NCBI RefSeq assembly: GCF_002897035.1
Contig: NZ_BAUX01000004.1
Coordinates: forward strand, 186,001-250,000
Direction of reading: 5' to 3'
DNA from: Methylopila sp. Yamaguchi
GTDB taxonomy: Bacteria; Pseudomonadota; Alphaproteobacteria; Rhizobiales; Methylopilaceae
DNA length: 64,000 bases
The position numbers were made by a program, and so were the translations under genes. The notes below the pieces were generated by a model. It was given only the letters and a program-made list of their open reading frames with translations. It did not search any database and had not been told where the DNA came from. This document shows, in pieces, positions 30,521-38,192 of the stretch. Each line of letters starts with the position of its first letter. The stretch's first letter is position 1.

Positions 30521-30807
30521 GCAACGCGGCTGAGATGCAGCGGGATCGATCGCCGGCAGATGACCCCGTCACTCGTCAGGGGCTCTTCCCCTGCGATGCG
30601 GAGATCGCGCGCCGGCTCTCGCTCGGCTCCGAGAAGTTCCGGCTGATGGCGGCCGCGCTCGAGCCGCTCGGATTCCCTCGGCGCGACGAGCTCGTGGGGC
30701 GCCGCTACTGGCCCGCGGTCCGGGCCTTTCTGGACAGGCGCTACGGCGTCGGTAGCCTCGCCTCGCCGTCACACGTCGACGGCGAGGAGAACCTGGATGC
30801 CTTCTGA
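30517..30807 (+). CDS. winged-helix (excisionase-like) phage protein
   Basis: ATG shared with the upstream stop (ATGA). 96 residues; the core FPCDAEIARRLSLGSEKFRLMAAALEPLGFP (two helices and a wing) plus RRYWPAVRAFLDRRYG is the layout of small winged-helix proteins encoded just before phage integrases. The W-P-A-V-R element is typical of them. It ends by overlapping the integrase start and probably directs excision. Confidence 0.65.
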   Translation: MSNAAEMQRDRSPADDPVTRQGLFPCDAEIARRLSLGSEKFRLMAAALEPLGFPRRDELVGRRYWPAVRAFLDRRYGVGSLASPSHVDGEENLDAF

Positions 30808-32077
30808 GATGGAACGACCGCCCCGAGCGCAAGCGCCGGGCCTCAAGGTGCGCGAGAACGCATCAGGGGCCCGGCGCTACTACTGGTTTCCAACCCGCGC
30901 CGCCTTGGCCGCCGGTTACCAGCCCGCAAGCGTCCCGATTGCTGGGGATGACGCGACCGAAACAGGCCGCGCGCTCATAGCGGGGGAGGCGCAGCGGCTG
31001 ACCGCCGACATGCTGCGCTGGCTCGACGAGCGTCAGCGGGGCACGCGCCCCGTCGTCACGCTCGCGGACCTCGTCCGGCGCTATCAGTCCGACCCCGAAA
31101 GCCCCTACAGGGCCGTGAAGTGGAACACGCGGCGGCTCTACACCGACGACTGCCGGCGCCTTGAGGCCGGCGCCGGCGATCGGCGGCTCGCGATGGTGAC
31201 CCGCGCCGACATCCACCGCTGGCACGAGGCGGCGACCAAGCCGAAGCCGATCGGCAAGGCGAAGCCGGGCGAGCCCGTGGTCTATGGACCTCCGCGCGTT
31301 CGATCAGCCCATGGGCTGATGCGCATGCTGCGGATCGTCGTCGGTTACGGGGTGTCGATCGGCGTGCCCGAGTGCGAGCGTCTGGATCTCGTGCTGTCGA
31401 AGATGAGGTTTAAGACGCCGTCCCGCCGGAAGTCGCGGCCCACCTATCACCAGGCGGTCGCGATCATCGCTAAGGCTCATGAGATGGGCGCGCGATCGGT
31501 CGCCTTCGCCCAGGCGCTGCAGTTCGACGGCATGTTCCGCCAGTCGAACGTCATCGGCCAGTGGCGGCCGCTGGAGGCAGGGGAGGAGGCCAACGGCCGA
31601 ATCGTCGCGAGCGGCCGTGTGTGGGAAGACGGACTGTGCTGGCGGCACATCGGCGAGGATCTCGTCGTACGGTTCGAGACGACGAAACGCGGCCTCGAGG
31701 TCGAGCTCGACCTGACGCTCTGCCCTCTGGTGCTCGCCGAGATCGAGCTCACGCCGATGGAGCAGCGAATCGGCCCGCTGATCATCGACGAGCGGTCCGG
31801 CAAGCCATACGTGGAGACGAGCTTCCCGAAGCGCTGGCGCGAGATCGCCACGGCGGCCGGAGTTCCGACCGACGTGTGGAATCGCGATAGCCGGTCTGGA
31901 GGGATCACCGAGGGCCGGATGGCCGGCGCCGACTTCTCCGATCTCGCCAAGCAGGCGGCGCATTCCGACCCCGCGATCACGGCGAAGATCTACGACAGGG
32001 GCGCGCTGGACGCCGCCCGTCGCGTGTCCCGGCTTCGCGCTGAGCTGCGCGCCAAGCCGGCCGGGAACGGGTCCTGA
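30797..32077 (+). CDS. tyrosine-type site-specific integrase
   Basis: 426 residues. N-terminal arm-binding and SAM-like core-binding regions come first (to about 200), then the catalytic domain with Arg248 (FDGMFRQSN), Lys297 (ETTKRGLE), Arg366 in DSRSGG, His389 (AAHSDPA) and nucleophile Tyr399 (KIYDRG). The usual His of HxxR is replaced by Asp364, a variant known in phage integrases. It joins attP with attB; 64 bases downstream lies the 3' end of tRNA-Arg, the natural target. Overlaps the winged-helix gene. Confidence 0.92.
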   Translation: MPSEMERPPRAQAPGLKVRENASGARRYYWFPTRAALAAGYQPASVPIAGDDATETGRALIAGEAQRLTADMLRWLDERQRGTRPVVTLADLVRRYQSDPESPYRAVKWNTRRLYTDDCRRLEAGAGDRRLAMVTRADIHRWHEAATKPKPIGKAKPGEPVVYGPPRVRSAHGLMRMLRIVVGYGVSIGVPECERLDLVLSKMRFKTPSRRKSRPTYHQAVAIIAKAHEMGARSVAFAQALQFDGMFRQSNVIGQWRPLEAGEEANGRIVASGRVWEDGLCWRHIGEDLVVRFETTKRGLEVELDLTLCPLVLAEIELTPMEQRIGPLIIDERSGKPYVETSFPKRWREIATAAGVPTDVWNRDSRSGGITEGRMAGADFSDLAKQAAHSDPAITAKIYDRGALDAARRVSRLRAELRAKPAGNGS

Positions 32078-32141: not shown

Positions 32142-32218
32142 TGGCGACCCCGGCTGGATTCGAACCAGCGACCATCAGCTTAGAAGGCTGGTGCTCTATC
32201 CGGCTGAGCTACGGGGCC
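32142..32218 (-). tRNA. tRNA-Arg (anticodon TCT), CCA encoded
   Basis: The reverse complement folds into a full cloverleaf of 77 bases: acceptor GGCCCCG/CGGGGTC with one G-T pair, D arm GCTC/GAGC, anticodon loop CTTCTAA with TCT (32182-32184 on the plus strand as AGA), T arm GCTGG/CCAGC with TTCGAAT loop, and genomic CCA. The top pair of the anticodon stem is a C-A mismatch. Its 3' end faces the integrase, so it is the likely attB/att core. Confidence 0.93.
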
Positions 32219-32708: not shown

Positions 32709-34550
32709 TCAGCCTGCGCTGCACGCCCCGCCGCCCAGTACGCAAAAGGTGGCGCAGTGCGGATGGTTGAGCGCGACGGGCCGGCTGGCCTCGCTCAGAG
32801 TCGCGCCGAGCTCGAAGCGCTCGTCATAGGCGAGGAGGGTGCAGGCGAGCACGGCGGGACGGTCCGCGCCCTTGCGCTTCACCACCATGCGGGATGAGGA
32901 GCACATCAGGCTCCGCGGATCGACGCCCAGCAGGCCCCAGCAGGCGGTCGTGATCTCGGGAACGTCGGCGCCGGCGTCCATTTCCGGAAACAGCGTCAGG
33001 GCGACAGGGTCGGCGGCGTCGATGGGGACGCCGTGCTCGTCGAACAGCCGGGCGAAGCCAGCCCGCACCACGCCTTCGGCCTCGCCGGAGAACAGGCGCC
33101 CGGCGACCGAGAGCGCAAACCCGTGATCGGCCAGCCATTTCATCCCGTCGAGCGTCGGCTGGAAGCTTCGCGGCCCCCGCTCGAGCTCGTGCAGGGCGGG
33201 ATCGTAGTGGTCGAGCGAGACCCGCAGGGTCAGCCGCCGGCCGTAGCGCTCCTTCAGAGCAAGCAGGGGCCCTTTCAGCCGCTGCATCGGCCGCATGGCG
33301 TTCGTCAGCACGAGCGCGCGATGACCGCGGGCGAGCGCGTCCTCGACCATCGCCATCAGGTCGGGGTTCATAAACGGTTCGCCGCCGGTAAAGCCGACTT
33401 CGGCGAGCTCGGGGTGGTCGCGCGCCGCCTCGTCGAGAAAGGCGCTGGCCTCCGCAGCCGTGAGATAGACCAGCCGGTCGTTGCGCGGCGTCGACTCGAT
33501 GTAGCAGTTCGCGCAGGCGAGATTGCAGCGCGTGCCGGTGTTCATCCAGAGCGTACGCAAGCTGGAAAGCTCGACCGTGGCGCGGGGCTCCCCGCGCGCG
33601 GTCGAGGCGCCGTCCTGAAATTTTTCGGGCGCGAGCCGAGGAGCCGCGGTCGAGACCGGCCACGCCGGCGCGTCGTCCGCGTCGCGGCGCCACACGAAGC
33701 CGCCCGGGTCGACCCTGCGGCCCGTCCGCCTGGCCTCTGAAGGAGGCAGAGCGTCGCAGCTCGGCCAAAGGCCGCTTCCGAGCGCCGCGGCGTAGCCTTC
33801 GGGCAGCCCGGCGGCGCGCATCTTGGCCGCCGCGACGGCCCAGCCGTACTCCAGCCGCCGGTGTTCGATGACGACGCTTCGCGGTTCGGCGCCGGGCGTC
33901 AGCAGGCTGAACCAGACCTCCGCGCAGCCGTCGTTCGCCGGCATCCCGACCGCGCCGGGGTTGTGCCAGAGCCGGCCTTCGATCACTTGGCTGAAGGGCA
34001 GGCCGGAGTGGCCCGCGACGATCCCGTCGACGCCGGACGCCTCGAGATCCAGCGCTTTCACCCGGGCCGGCGTCGAGGGGAAGACGAAGCGCGCGATGTG
34101 GTCGAGCGATCCGTGGATTACGGCGAGGGTGAGCCCGCCGACCTGGACGTCGAGCCGGCGGGGCAGGGCGGCCATCCACGCGCGGTCGTCCGGCCCGAGT
34201 TCGCGCGAGGCATGGGCGAACCAGGCTGCGGAGAGCCGGTCGCAGGCGCTGCCCGGCGCGAAGCCGCAGCCGCAGTCCTCCTCGCCCGCCGCCAGCTGCT
34301 CCTCGCAGTTGCCCATGACGACGTGGATCCCTGCGCCGCGGACGAGATCCACGCAGGCCTTCGCGTCCGCGCCATAGGCCACGACGTCGCCGGTGCAGAC
34401 CACGCGATGCGGCGGCACGCCCAGGCGCGCCGCTTCGGACAGCGCGGCGGCGGTCGCCTCGAGGTTCGAATAAGGGCCGCCGAACAGAAACAGGGGCCCG
34501 TCCGACGTCGTATCGGGGGAGATCGTCATGTCCTGAGATACGAAAGCCAT
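32709..34550 (-). CDS. metallophosphoesterase-radical SAM fusion protein
   Basis: From the ATG at 34550 (ATG 34529 is also possible) the protein has 613 residues. Residues 20-235 follow a calcineurin-like phosphoesterase, with CTGDVVAYG, GNCEE, VIHG and AGHS; yet the first metal motif DxHGN is GGPYSN and GNHD/E has Cys, as in a diverged subfamily. Residues 335-560 are a radical SAM domain with CxxxCxxC at Cys342, 346 and 349 (RCNLACANCY), and GFTGGEPF as the GGE motif. The end carries Cys599, 603 and 610 around GGG, perhaps an auxiliary cluster. It is divergent from a PhnD/E/C-like operon and two rSAM-associated transferases. Substrate unknown. Confidence 0.8.
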   Translation of the reverse strand: MAFVSQDMTISPDTTSDGPLFLFGGPYSNLEATAAALSEAARLGVPPHRVVCTGDVVAYGADAKACVDLVRGAGIHVVMGNCEEQLAAGEEDCGCGFAPGSACDRLSAAWFAHASRELGPDDRAWMAALPRRLDVQVGGLTLAVIHGSLDHIARFVFPSTPARVKALDLEASGVDGIVAGHSGLPFSQVIEGRLWHNPGAVGMPANDGCAEVWFSLLTPGAEPRSVVIEHRRLEYGWAVAAAKMRAAGLPEGYAAALGSGLWPSCDALPPSEARRTGRRVDPGGFVWRRDADDAPAWPVSTAAPRLAPEKFQDGASTARGEPRATVELSSLRTLWMNTGTRCNLACANCYIESTPRNDRLVYLTAAEASAFLDEAARDHPELAEVGFTGGEPFMNPDLMAMVEDALARGHRALVLTNAMRPMQRLKGPLLALKERYGRRLTLRVSLDHYDPALHELERGPRSFQPTLDGMKWLADHGFALSVAGRLFSGEAEGVVRAGFARLFDEHGVPIDAADPVALTLFPEMDAGADVPEITTACWGLLGVDPRSLMCSSSRMVVKRKGADRPAVLACTLLAYDERFELGATLSEASRPVALNHPHCATFCVLGGGACSAG

Positions 34551-34605
34551 GGGAGGGATGCTACACGTGTCCGATCGATTTGCCCGCAACCTGAGGGAGC
34601 CGCTC

Positions 34606-35472
34606 GTGCGCGCTGCAGTTCGACGCCTCGCGGTCGCGGCGCTCCTTCTCGCCGCGAGCGCGGCTCCGGCCGGCGCGGAACCCCTGCGCTTCGCTGTCGG
34701 CCCGTTCCAGCCGACCCCCGGAGACACGCGAAAGGCTTACGAGCCGTTCTTCGCCTATCTCGCGAAGACGCTCGGGGTGGACTACGAGCTGGTCGTCACC
34801 ACGGATTGGGCTGGCATTGCGACCGCGCTCGCGACCGGGCAGGCTGACGTCGCCTGGATGGGCCCCTGGGGCTACGTCCTCGCCAACCGCGAAGGCGACG
34901 CCCAAGCGATCGCGACGGTGAAGTACGACGGCAAGCCGACCTACCACGCCATCGTCGTCGGTCGTCCGGACCTTCAGATCGAGACTTGGCCGGACGACGC
35001 GAAGGGCCTCAGCATCTCTTTCGCCGACGTCGGCTCCACCTCCGGCTGGTTGATCCCGACCTGGTGGCTCAAGACGAAGGGGATCGACCCCAAGACCTTC
35101 TTCAAATACCGCGACGGCGCCTCTCATCCGGCGAACGAAATCGCGGTCGCGAACGGACAGGTCGACCTCGCCACCGACTACGACCGAAACCTGCGCGCGA
35201 TGCAGGAGCGTGGGCTGCTCAAGCCTGATCAGGTAAAGGTGGTCTGGACCTCGGAACCGCTGCCGAACGATCCGCTGGTGGTCCGCAAGAGCTTCGACCC
35301 AGCCCGCGTCGAGACGCTGCGCAAGGCTGTCACCGCCATCGACGAGGAACAGGCGAAGGCGGTGATGCCGCCCCATTACACCGGCTGGGTCGCCGCCGGG
35401 CACGCCGATTACAAGCTGATCGAAGACGCCGGCGTCGCCGTCGGCAAGCTGAAGCCGCGAGGGCCTGAGTGA
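34606..35472 (+). CDS. phnD: PhnD-like phosphonate-family ABC substrate-binding protein
   Basis: I start at GTG 34606 because GGAG lies seven bases upstream and the signal peptide then begins properly (VRAAVRRLAVAALLLAASAAPAGAEP as two parts, cleavage after AGA). Mature part LRFAVGPFQPTPGDTRKAY ... VDYELVVTTDWAGIATALATGQADVAWMGP, split here, follows PhnD of TRAP-like phosphonate, phosphite or hypophosphite importers. Ligand residues Tyr/Ser/Thr near STSGWLIP are in place. 288 residues. It is the first gene of a rightward operon, and whether the ligand is a phosphonate, phosphite or arsenic/selenium oxyanion cannot be told. Confidence 0.85.
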   Translation: MRAAVRRLAVAALLLAASAAPAGAEPLRFAVGPFQPTPGDTRKAYEPFFAYLAKTLGVDYELVVTTDWAGIATALATGQADVAWMGPWGYVLANREGDAQAIATVKYDGKPTYHAIVVGRPDLQIETWPDDAKGLSISFADVGSTSGWLIPTWWLKTKGIDPKTFFKYRDGASHPANEIAVANGQVDLATDYDRNLRAMQERGLLKPDQVKVVWTSEPLPNDPLVVRKSFDPARVETLRKAVTAIDEEQAKAVMPPHYTGWVAAGHADYKLIEDAGVAVGKLKPRGPE

Positions 35473-35475
35473 GCC

Positions 35476-36246
35476 GTGCCGTCTGACCGGGGTCGGGCGC
35501 TGGGCCGTCTCCTCGCGGCGGCGCTTGCAATCGCGGCGCTCGCGCTGATGTGGCGGGTCGCCGAGGTCGACCTCTCGCGCCTCTGGCAGGGGCTGCCTCG
35601 GCTCGCCGCCTGGGGCGCCCGGGCCTGGCCGCCCAACTTCGAGGATGGGGCAACCCTTCTACGCCGGGCCGGCGAGACGCTCGCCATGGCGACGCTCGGC
35701 ACGCTTCTCGGCGCGCTTGTCGCCGCGCCGCTCTGCCTGCTCGCCGCCCGCACCACGGCGCCGGGCGCTATCGTCTACGCGCCGGCGCGAGCGCTGCTGA
35801 ACATGCTGCGGGGGGTCGACAGTTTCGTCTTCGCCCTCCTGTTCGTGGCGGCCGTCGGTCTGGGGCCGTTCGCGGGTCTGCTGGGCATCGCCATGCATTC
35901 CGCGGGCTCGATCGCGAAGCTTTGGTCGGAGACGATCGAGCAAGCGGCCCCCGGCCCGGTCGAGGCGGCGACGCTCACCGGGGCCTCGCGCCTTAAGGTC
36001 GCGCTGCACGCGCTCCTGCCGGACGTGGCGCCGGGGCTCACCTCCACCGCGCTCTACATCCTGGAGTTCAACGTTCGGGCCTCGACCGTGCTCGGCGTCG
36101 TCGGCGCCGGCGGTTTGGGACAGGAGTTGAAGAACGCCGTGGACCTGCTCGATTCGCCCCGCGTGTTCGCGATCATCCTTGTCATCCTCGTCATGGTGAC
36201 GGCGATCGACGCCTTCAGCGCTTTGGCCCGCCGGAGGCTGGCGTGA
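35476..36246 (+). CDS. phnE: PhnE-like ABC transporter permease
   Basis: GTG start three bases after the PhnD stop. 256 residues with about six membrane segments. The cytoplasmic loop EAATLTGASRLKVALHALLPDVAPGL, in two parts, is the EAA motif that contacts the ATPase, and the end GVVGAGGLGQEL is characteristic of PhnE. It forms the inner-membrane channel for the solute delivered by PhnD. Overlaps the ATPase gene by four bases. Confidence 0.87.
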   Translation: MPSDRGRALGRLLAAALAIAALALMWRVAEVDLSRLWQGLPRLAAWGARAWPPNFEDGATLLRRAGETLAMATLGTLLGALVAAPLCLLAARTTAPGAIVYAPARALLNMLRGVDSFVFALLFVAAVGLGPFAGLLGIAMHSAGSIAKLWSETIEQAAPGPVEAATLTGASRLKVALHALLPDVAPGLTSTALYILEFNVRASTVLGVVGAGGLGQELKNAVDLLDSPRVFAIILVILVMVTAIDAFSALARRRLA

Positions 36247-36929
36247 CCGGCGGCGTCGTCGTGCGCCGGCTCTCGAAGGTCTACGACGGCCGCGCGGCGC
36301 TGCGGAACGCCTCGCTCACCGCGCCGCGCGGAAGCTTCGTCGCGCTTCTTGGGCCGAGCGGCGCGGGCAAGACCACGCTGTTGCGCTGCCTCGCGCGTTT
36401 GGTCGCGCCCGACGCCGGCGAAGCCTACGTCGATGGCCGCCCGATGCACGCGCTGTCGGGCCGGGCCTTGAGGGAGGCGCGGGCGCGCATCGGCTTCGTA
36501 TTCCAGGATTTCAACCTCGTTCGGCGCCGCTCGGCTTTGGACAACGCGCTCGGCGGCGTGCTTGCGAGCACGCCGCTGTGGCGCGTCGCGCTTGGCCGTC
36601 CGCGGCCCGCCGACGCCCGCTCCGCTATGGCGGCGCTCGACCGGGTCGGGCTTGGCGACCGGGCCGGGGCCCGAGCGGACGAACTGTCCGGCGGACAGCG
36701 GCAGAGGGTGGCGATCGCGCGCGCGCTGGTGCAGGACACCGCCGTGCTGCTCGCGGACGAGCCGGTGGCGAGTCTCGATCCCGACTCCGCCGCGGGGGTG
36801 CTCGCGCTGCTGAAGGACCTCACGCGGGAACGCGGACTCACGGTCCTCTGCAGCCTGCATCAGCATCATCTCGCGCACGCCTACGCCGACGAGATCGTCA
36901 GGCTCGCGCCGCCCGAGGGCGAGCCGTGA
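36243..36929 (+). CDS. phnC: PhnC-like ABC transporter ATPase
   Basis: GTG start overlapping the permease stop. 228 residues with Walker A GPSGAGKTT, Q-loop VFQDFNL, signature LSGGQRQRV, Walker B VLLADEP with SLDP, and switch His in CSLHQHH. The FQDFNLVRRRSALDNAL stretch is typical of PhnC. It powers import with the preceding genes. The stop overlaps the GTG of the transferase gene, tying transporter and transferases into one transcript. Confidence 0.88.
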   Translation: MTGGVVVRRLSKVYDGRAALRNASLTAPRGSFVALLGPSGAGKTTLLRCLARLVAPDAGEAYVDGRPMHALSGRALREARARIGFVFQDFNLVRRRSALDNALGGVLASTPLWRVALGRPRPADARSAMAALDRVGLGDRAGARADELSGGQRQRVAIARALVQDTAVLLADEPVASLDPDSAAGVLALLKDLTRERGLTVLCSLHQHHLAHAYADEIVRLAPPEGEP

Positions 36930-37600
36930 GGCTTTCGGTGGTCATCCCGGCCTTGAACGCCGAGGGCGAACTGCCGGCCACGCTCGCGAGCCTGGAGGAG
37001 GGGGGGCATGCGATCGCCGAGGTCGTCGTCAGCGACGGCGGCTCGTCGGACCGCACGCGCGAGGTGGCGGAGGCGTTCGGCTGTCGGGTGAGCGTCGGGT
37101 CGCGGGGCCGCGGGGCGCAGCTTCGGCGGGGCGCCGGGCTCGCGACCGGCGACTGGCTGCTGTTCCTCCACGCCGACACACATCTGGAAGCCGGCTGGAG
37201 CGCGGCCGCCGCGCGCTTCGCGATCCACGCTGGCGACAATGGGGCCGCAGCGTTCGCCTTCGCTTTGGACGATGACGCGCCTGCCGCGAGGAGGCTGGAG
37301 AGTGCGGTGCGCTGGCGCGTTCGGCTGCTCGCCTTGCCCTACGGCGATCAGGGGCTGCTGATCTCGCGCGCCTTCTACGATCGCCTCGGCGGCTACGCCG
37401 ATTTCCCCCTGATGGAGGACGTCGACCTCGCTCGCCGCATCGGCCGGCGGCAGCTGACTATCCTGCCCGTCCGCGCGGTGACGAGCGCCGCGCGCTACCG
37501 CCGGGACGGCTATCTCCGTCGCATGGCGCGGAACGCCCTCTGTCTCGCGCTCTATCTCGGCGGGGCGTCGCCTGCGCGGATCGCGAGGCTCTATGGCTGA
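36926..37600 (+). CDS. GT2-type transferase 2, rSAM/selenodomain-associated (TIGR04283)
   Basis: GTG start in GTGA with the PhnC stop. 224 residues: LSVVIPALNAEGELPATL and VVVSDGGSSDRT form the nucleotide-sugar site of a family 2 glycosyltransferase, LFLHADTHL contains the DxD-like metal site, and FPLMEDVDLARRIG the acceptor/base motif. The sequence style is that of the TIGR04283 family, later called arsenosugar biosynthesis glycosyltransferase. Together with TIGR04282 and a radical SAM protein it forms a known co-occurring set. Confidence 0.85.
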   Translation: MRLSVVIPALNAEGELPATLASLEEGGHAIAEVVVSDGGSSDRTREVAEAFGCRVSVGSRGRGAQLRRGAGLATGDWLLFLHADTHLEAGWSAAAARFAIHAGDNGAAAFAFALDDDAPAARRLESAVRWRVRLLALPYGDQGLLISRAFYDRLGGYADFPLMEDVDLARRIGRRQLTILPVRAVTSAARYRRDGYLRRMARNALCLALYLGGASPARIARLYG

Positions 37601-38192
37601 GCCTCGGGCGCGTCCGACGCTGTTCGTGATGGTGAAGGCGCCGGTGGCGGGCCGCGTGAAGACCCGGCTTGCGCGCACCATCGGCGCGCCGGAAGCCGTA
37701 CGCTTCTACCGCACGGCGACGGCGGCGCTGCTGCGGCGGGTCGGCCGGGACCCGCGCTGGCGCACGGTTCTGGCGGTCGCGCCGGACGTGGCGGCGGCGA
37801 CCTGGTTCTGGCCCGCGGACATCGCGCGCGTCGGGCAGGGGTCGGGCGACCTCGGCGCCCGGATGCAGCGGTTGCTCGATCTCAACCGCGGCGCCCCGAC
37901 GGTCATCGTCGGATCGGACATCCCCGGCGTGCGGCGCCGCCATGTCGCGCAGGCGTTCCGCGCGCTGGGGACGCACGAGATCGTGTTCGGTCCTGCGGAC
38001 GACGGCGGCTACTGGCTGGTTGGGGCGCGCGGGCGACCGCGAGTCCCGAAGCTGTTTGGAAACGTCCGGTGGTCGACGGAGCACGCGCTCGCCGATACGC
38101 GGGCGAACGCAGGGGCTTCCGTGGGATTTCTGGGACGGCTGTCGGACGTAGACGACGAGACCAACTGGCGGGCGTGGCGCCGGGGCGAATAA
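37593..38192 (+). CDS. CofC-like transferase 1, rSAM/selenodomain-associated (TIGR04282)
   Basis: 199 residues; overlaps the TIGR04283 gene by eight bases. FVMVKAPVAGRVKTRLA is the nucleotide-binding start of this CofC/GlmU-like nucleotidyltransferase family, VIVGSDIPG the central Asp motif, and FGPADDGGYWLVG the substrate loop. It likely transfers a nucleotidyl or sugar group in the pathway of the adjacent radical SAM protein. Last gene of the operon. Confidence 0.86.
   Translation: MAEPRARPTLFVMVKAPVAGRVKTRLARTIGAPEAVRFYRTATAALLRRVGRDPRWRTVLAVAPDVAAATWFWPADIARVGQGSGDLGARMQRLLDLNRGAPTVIVGSDIPGVRRRHVAQAFRALGTHEIVFGPADDGGYWLVGARGRPRVPKLFGNVRWSTEHALADTRANAGASVGFLGRLSDVDDETNWRAWRRGE

Follow-up and report, generated by a model that had tools for sequence, protein, structure and literature searches.

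What would a radical S-adenosylmethionine (SAM) enzyme fused to a phosphoesterase do beside an importer of the phosphonate type and two sugar-type transferases? This question is raised by a six-gene cluster of Methylopila sp. Yamaguchi, located at positions 32709-38192 of the stretch analysed here (64,000 nucleotides of contig NZ_BAUX01000004.1, hereafter the window). An earlier note on this DNA had suggested that an imported oxyanion of phosphorus, arsenic or selenium is converted into an organic compound and decorated by the transferases. Among these three elements, the genes that keep company with the cluster and its relatives point to arsenic. We propose that the cluster encodes an alphaproteobacterial version of the arsenosugar pathway, in which the radical SAM half would do the job of the enzyme ArsS, a reading that rests on sequence comparisons and to which we give a probability of about 0.58. 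The features of the cluster are as follows.

32709-34550, minus strand: fusion gene, calcineurin-like phosphoesterase plus radical SAM (613 residues; Metallophos_2 and Radical_SAM both over the Pfam threshold)
33690..34508, minus strand: degenerate phosphoesterase half of the fusion (residues ~15-287)
32712..33620, minus strand: radical SAM half of the fusion (residues ~311-613)
34549-35472, plus strand: PhnD-family binding protein, an HtxB/PtxB 'hybrid' (GTG 34606 being the likelier start)
35476-36246, plus strand: PhnE permease (TIGR01097, 251.3 bits, over the cut-off of 216.7)
36243-36929, plus strand: PhnC ATPase (TIGR02315, 250.1 bits, just under the cut-off of 266.1)
36926-37600, plus strand: TIGR04283 GT2-type transferase (216.0 bits, over the cut-off of 182)
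37593-38192, plus strand: TIGR04282 CofC-like nucleotidyl/glycosyl transferase (DUF2064, PF09837; 140.6 bits, cut-off 134)

The six genes and the tight array of five rightward ones facing the 613-residue fusion had already been described in the earlier note, and both the open reading frames and the family scores bear this out, including the two transferase assignments, each over its curated cut-off. The rightward genes are separated by a gap of 3 bases and then overlap by 4, 4 and 8 bases, and the divergent gap between the fusion gene and phnD amounts to ~55 bases if phnD starts at GTG 34606. This late start fits the PhnD homologues of two genomes discussed below (G447 and G327; G and L numbers are our labels for genomes and loci), whose alignment begins at residue 24 or 28 of the window PhnD. 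The cluster is more than a chance assembly, since the identical gene order recurs in two other genomes of the Methylopila genus (L003/L189, counted as one, and L188) and in Bradyrhizobium sp. BTAi1 (L008).

The link to ArsS comes from the canonical enzyme itself, seen in the same slot. In a single draw of 385 alphaproteobacterial genomes, ArsS over cut-off is found in two (G327 and G447, of one genus), and neither contains the radical SAM family of the window. Their gene order is TIGR04282, a VTT-MerA-like fusion, ArsS (445.7 bits), an MTAP-like gene, TIGR04283, a phosphoesterase on the opposite strand, PhnD, PhnE and PhnC. The phosphoesterase stands alone and belongs to the same family as the fusion's half, the PhnD is 71% identical to that of the window, and ArsS takes the position that the radical SAM half has in the window. 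More generally, the genes that accompany ArsS (TIGR04283, TIGR04282, VTT, MerA-like, ArsM-like and MTAP-like) also accompany the radical SAM family. We hand-picked 20 ArsS loci, covering 17 families, out of 114 genomes with a match (six of the loci are shorter than 15 kb). Their partners were VTT (8), MerA-like (8), TIGR04283 (7), TIGR04282 (6), ArsM-like (3) and MTAP-like (2). As for the radical SAM family, Acidiphilium and Acidocella loci combine a major facilitator superfamily (MFS) gene, the fusion, VTT/MerA-like, TIGR04283 and TIGR04282, and L180 unites radical SAM, TIGR04282, TIGR04283, MTAP-like and ArsM-like genes. ArsM-like genes lie beside the enzyme in L038 (Aurantiacibacter), L041, L051 (Alteraurantiacibacter), L171, L178, L179 and L180, and MTAP-like genes in L041, L172, L180 and L181. 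The best NCBIfam match of the ArsM-like proteins of L171, L180 and L041 is arsenite methyltransferase (203.6, 199.8 and 157.9 of 263 bits, all under cut-off), and that of the MTAP-like proteins of L159 and L180 (under cut-off) and L172 (over) is S-methyl-5'-thioadenosine phosphorylase; being over cut-off, the L172 protein may be the housekeeping enzyme. The earlier note had reasoned that the product may be new because ArsS and ArsM are missing. The premise stands (ArsS over cut-off in 0 of 18 family genomes, ArsM not found), but it does not follow from a missing ArsS that the product is new, since the radical SAM family appears to occupy its place in ArsS-type clusters.

Within the radical SAM half, the CxxxCxxC cluster motif (C342, C346, C349) is kept in 55 of 55 aligned rows, and five C-terminal cysteines (C550, C570, C599, C603, C610) are each invariant in the rows counted. 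ArsS shares the CxxxCxxC core and has five conserved C-terminal cysteines in the same number and order, although their spacing differs (19/28/3/6 in the fusion family versus 14/38/2/7 in ArsS). A further difference is the phosphoesterase, which is fused or adjacent to members of the radical SAM family and was seen beside ArsS only in G327/G447. Profile comparison (hhalign) of the fusion family with ArsS gave a probability of 98.8 and an E-value of 9e-17 over the radical SAM core, where other radical SAM families would match too. The fusion is probably a functional stand-in for ArsS and not an ArsS; orthology is ruled out by its score against TIGR04167 (53.8 bits for a cut-off of 300). Its predicted structure (pLDDT 83.8, pTM 0.83) combines a phosphoesterase half folded like SapH/PH1004 with a radical SAM half folded like BlsE, SuiB, MoaA and viperin; no ArsS structure is among the Foldseek/VIA matches listed, which does not mean that there is none. 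The ArsL/ArsM arsinothricin cluster offers a comparison, in that its radical SAM enzyme makes a C-As bond and has an ArsM next to it. According to the excerpted text of that report, ArsL differs from the fusion in its size of 428 residues and in having only three conserved cysteines, hence one cluster, and it moves a 3-amino-3-carboxypropyl group (PMC8552651).

At the scale of whole genomes, the pairing of the radical SAM half with the transferases, on which the reading in the earlier note relied, is supported. The radical SAM family (E<=1e-60) is present in 115 of the 385 genomes, with at least 387.7 bits in all but one (G417, 214.2 bits), and TIGR04283 (E<=1e-25) in 149. Both occur in 111 genomes (111/115 of those with the enzyme), the enzyme only in 4, TIGR04283 only in 38 and neither in 232 (Fisher p ~1e-57, uncorrected for relatedness). 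Under the curated TIGR04283 cut-off, passed by 125 genomes, the corresponding numbers are 97 (97/115), 18, 28 and 242 (p ~4e-46). Two of the four enzyme-only genomes are 84% and 80% complete. The 115 enzyme genomes represent 55 families; in 53 of them, one genome or more combines the enzyme with TIGR04283. Three genomes of one family that measure 1.2-1.3 Mb (G401, G587, G660) retain the radical SAM enzyme together with a weak TIGR04283 match (E ~1e-31 to 1e-34), and G401 retains the phosphoesterase as well (L177); keeping the enzyme in genomes of this size suggests that its function matters.

In Methylopila, for which no ArsM was found, the pathway that we envisage would start with the import of a methylated arsenical by the HtxB/PtxB-hybrid ATP-binding cassette importer. 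The arsenical would be reduced, a step for which the MerA-like protein is a candidate in those clusters that have one. As judged from the slot that it shares with ArsS, the radical SAM half would then cleave SAM and place the 5'-deoxyadenosyl group onto the trivalent methylated arsenical, yielding a 5'-arsenic-substituted adenosine. Adenine could then be removed by an MTAP-like phosphorylase, housekeeping or clustered, and TIGR04282 and TIGR04283, to go by their NCBIfam names, would activate the arsenic sugar so formed and transfer it. The phosphoesterase half may bind or channel a substrate, which could be As(III) bound to thiols or the product nucleotide. In this scheme, we infer arsenic as the element, the adenosylation, the importer ligand and the role of the phosphoesterase.

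Several results weigh against the arsenosugar reading and have to be set beside it. In NCBIfam, the fusion matches ArsS only second best, after the Rv1681 (MoeX) family NF049973 (92.1 bits versus a cut-off of 380), and the C-terminal cysteine region alone did not align significantly with its ArsS counterpart (hhalign, P ~0.02). The exchange with ArsS counts as one evolutionary event, because G327 and G447 are close relatives. The closest PhnD relatives with a known ligand bind phosphorus compounds. Physical linkage is the exception: in the 104 genomes whose coordinates were listed, the enzyme and TIGR04283 are on the same contig in 30 and within 7 kb in 16, contig breaks hiding some proximity. 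In the 59 loci fetched with peptide patterns of the window protein, and hence biased to close relatives (31 lack 8 kb of flank on at least one side, and bit-score thresholds for the neighbour tally were of our choosing), TIGR04283 lies within 8 kb of the enzyme in 20 (12 of the 28 with full flanks) and PhnD in 2 (2 of 28). The earlier note had named as adverse a neighbourhood confined to this strain or a fusion gene usually lacking transporter and transferases; half of this came true, in that nearby PhnD and TIGR04283 are usually missing, although nearly all the genomes do contain the transferase. Conversely, 36 genomes have TIGR04283 without the radical SAM family or ArsS. TIGR04283-TIGR04282 pairs were seen in such genomes (L163-L169), where some other partner may exist.

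ArsM adds to this side of the balance. It was not found in the window genome (NF008823 gave nothing at 1e-40, and comparison with an ArsM-like protein reached 40.6 bits at best), which leaves the complete arsenosugar pathway without its ArsM by this measure. Nor is ArsM enriched genome-wide with the enzyme: NF008823 matches at E<=1e-40 occur in 21/115 enzyme genomes (6/40 plus 15/75) versus 2/10 chosen genomes without it. It is the position of ArsM and not its frequency that speaks for a link, since in 5 of these 21 genomes (G465, G417, G143, G147, G609) the ArsM match and the enzyme gene are ~0.05-2.4 kb apart. No ArsM-like gene was found in the six close-importer genomes tested (G000, G007, G013, G327, G447, G571), which fits the import of an already methylated arsenical, although 0/6 is not unusual given 21/115. 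In G396, G489, G491, G572, G577 and G603, ArsM-family matches contain one in-frame TGA each and are perhaps selenoprotein methyltransferases of a kind already named in NCBIfam.

The phosphoesterase half departs from its relatives in a way that had escaped the earlier note, which had correctly recognized the phosphoesterase-radical SAM fusion. Compared with 3rqz, the Asp and His of motif I are replaced by Gly and Tyr, the His of GNH by Cys and the last His of GHxH by Gly. In a 52-row alignment, the motif I Asp is Gly in 51/51 readable rows, the motif I His is never His (51/51) and the last GHxH His is Gly in 50/50. The dinuclear calcineurin-like signature (motif I Asp-x-His plus GHxH) is absent, while GD, GN, a His and the first GH His are retained; we take the retained residues to be the second metal site of the fold and the missing ones the first. 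Unlike the SapH/YfcE-type metallophosphoesterases (3qfm, 3rqz, 2gju), this half combines the loss of one metal site with a conserved cysteine-rich stretch of its own (DCGCGF..GS.C). The conserved cysteines counted in this half are C95 and C103 (51/51 rows), C93 (50/51), C82 and C52 (49/51). Since it keeps the four ligands of one metal site, and since its nearest folds among the matches listed are the SapH Ap4A hydrolase/phosphodiesterase, PH1004 and 3rqz, this half might be an active single-metal phosphodiesterase, for instance on a nucleotide by-product. We consider this possible but doubtful, as the motif I Asp and His and the last GHxH His are gone in every readable row, and a cysteine-rich single-metal or carrier role appears more likely than normal catalysis. 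The 59 loci comprise 30 fused genes (including L053, whose frame is interrupted), 10 with the radical SAM gene followed by a neighbouring phosphoesterase gene, 15 with radical SAM only and 4 with phosphoesterase only, some loci stopping at a contig edge. In 80 hand-picked genomes, the phosphoesterase is present in 12 of 50 with the radical SAM enzyme, in 2 of 20 with TIGR04283 only (both ArsS genomes) and in 0 of 10 with neither; with 12/50, it is an optional partner of the enzyme.

The importer is where a phosphorus-based explanation finds its best footing. PhnDEC would take up phosphite or hypophosphite, and a sugar or nucleoside with a C-P bond would be built by the radical SAM enzyme together with the transferases. 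Of the PhnDEC-like importer named in the earlier note, PhnE and, as a member of the general phosphate/phosphite/phosphonate family, PhnD (173.5 bits, cut-off 112.05) score over cut-off, whereas PhnC is just under its own and PhnD is under that of the PhnD equivalog (181.2 bits, cut-off 261.1). The note had missed the likeness to HtxB, a hypophosphite-binding protein that is the best PDB match of the window PhnD (5me4, E 6e-86). By the pocket numbering given in the available text of PMC5700983 and PMC6629693, the window PhnD retains W52, W68, R178 and D206 of HtxB, with Ser in place of N128 and His in place of F158 as in the phosphite-binding PtxB. It unites the Trp52 cap and Asp206-Arg178 latch of the former with the Ser-Thr-Ser and His oxygen site of the latter and, on our reading of the defining residues in that text, matches the 'hybrid' class described by Bisson et al. 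2017 (PMC5700983). The ligands measured there were hypophosphite, phosphite and some phosphonates, and the passages on the hybrid class name no ligand. The pocket residues (W87, D241, R213, S163-T164-S165, H193 in the window) are unchanged in 7/7 rows, including the two ArsS-linked PhnDs. The predicted pocket, with three oxygens and one small group under Trp, suits phosphite; methylarsonate, having the same shape with a methyl for the hydrogen, would fit as a candidate ligand. Sensors of the AioX/ArxX type bind arsenite through cysteines; an AioX-like arsenite-binding protein is ruled out here, as the window PhnD has no Cys. The C-P lyase genes phnGHIJKLM are not among the six cluster genes, a statement about the cluster only, no genome-wide search having been made. 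Unlike HtxB/PtxB systems, the window PhnD has ArsS-type gene neighbours. Phosphorus as the substrate is unlikely in our view, given that the 71% identical PhnD sits with a canonical ArsS in two genomes, that the radical SAM family lies beside ArsM-like genes elsewhere, and that the importer is rare among enzyme genomes (PhnD at E<=1e-30 in 5 of the 50 hand-picked ones, above 350 bits in 2).

A further alternative is an importer that serves a purpose unrelated to that of the enzyme, with PhnDEC co-transferred and an arsenosugar-type pathway made only of radical SAM, transferases, VTT and MerA-like proteins. PhnD within 8 kb in only 2 of the 28 full-flank loci and an MFS carrier gene within 8 kb in 18 of 59, acidophile loci included, speak in this sense. 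To us it is as improbable as the phosphorus pathway, because the divergent phosphoesterase-PhnDEC layout, common to the window, Bradyrhizobium BTAi1 (L008) and the G327/G447 genus, recurs with two different radical SAM enzymes.

That the radical SAM half might belong functionally to the Rv1681 (MoeX) family and not with ArsS finds some encouragement in its higher score to this family than to ArsS. Besides, Rv1680 is in NCBIfam a PhnD-like family (25.7 bits to the window PhnD), and the consecutive locus numbers mean that a radical SAM/PhnD-like pair may exist. L178 (G417) holds a divergent radical SAM relative (37% identical, 214 bits) with ArsM-like, TIGR04282 and TIGR04283 neighbours; its top NCBIfam match is Rv1681 (109.2 bits), making it a possible bridge to that family. 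However, all these scores are far under cut-off, the neighbours are shared with ArsS, and the papers listed for Rv1681/MoeX, judged from the listing, concern tuberculosis markers and vaccines, so that we hold this affiliation to be quite improbable. Slimmer still is the chance of a phosphorus counterpart of the proposed chemistry, in which imported phosphite and the 5'-deoxyadenosyl radical would form a C-P bond without phosphoenolpyruvate mutase to give a 5'-phosphonate sugar.

Within the genus, the cluster is found in 3 of 13 genomes (G000, G007, G013), always between tRNA-Arg(tct) and doxX-panC. The ten others show no ArsS-profile match above 28.3 bits versus 54-56 in these three; absence rests on these weak matches and, for nine, also on the tRNA-Arg flank, which (mostly ~6-7 kb per side) did not reach panC or doxX and is uninformative about an empty site. 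An exact copy of the 3' 45 bases of the tRNA gene (window 32142-32186) lies 67 kb upstream on the same contig (G000:C4:151083-151127), and an integrase-like open reading frame without a Pfam match at 1e-5 (30797-32077) adjoins the tRNA. An integrated element of ~67 kb, covering window 1-32186, seems to end just before the cluster, which is ruled out as its cargo because the repeat puts the element end at 32186. A BrnA-type antitoxin gene (PF14384; 32332-32745, minus strand) lies between the tRNA and the fusion, and relatives of it are found near the same tRNA in several other genus genomes. In other loci (L012, L013, L015, L022, L023, L056, L061), the fusion is preceded by a set of small conserved genes (c8, c10, c16, c11; c16 not seen in L012) that presumably resembles a bufferin-type DUF2282-DUF692-DUF2063-DoxX block.

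In the open-licence literature, titles and the first lines of abstracts contain nothing on the fusion, on a replacement of ArsS in Alphaproteobacteria or on a PhnD-type organoarsenical importer, which is a weak negative. To our knowledge, it is also not settled which microbes make the arsenosugars of the environment. If the arsenosugar reading is true, synthesis of this type would be widespread in Alphaproteobacteria, where the enzyme occurs in 115 of 385 sampled genomes, through an enzyme family that ArsS-based surveys would overlook. Some of these bacteria may moreover feed the route by importing organoarsenicals and not by methylating arsenic themselves.

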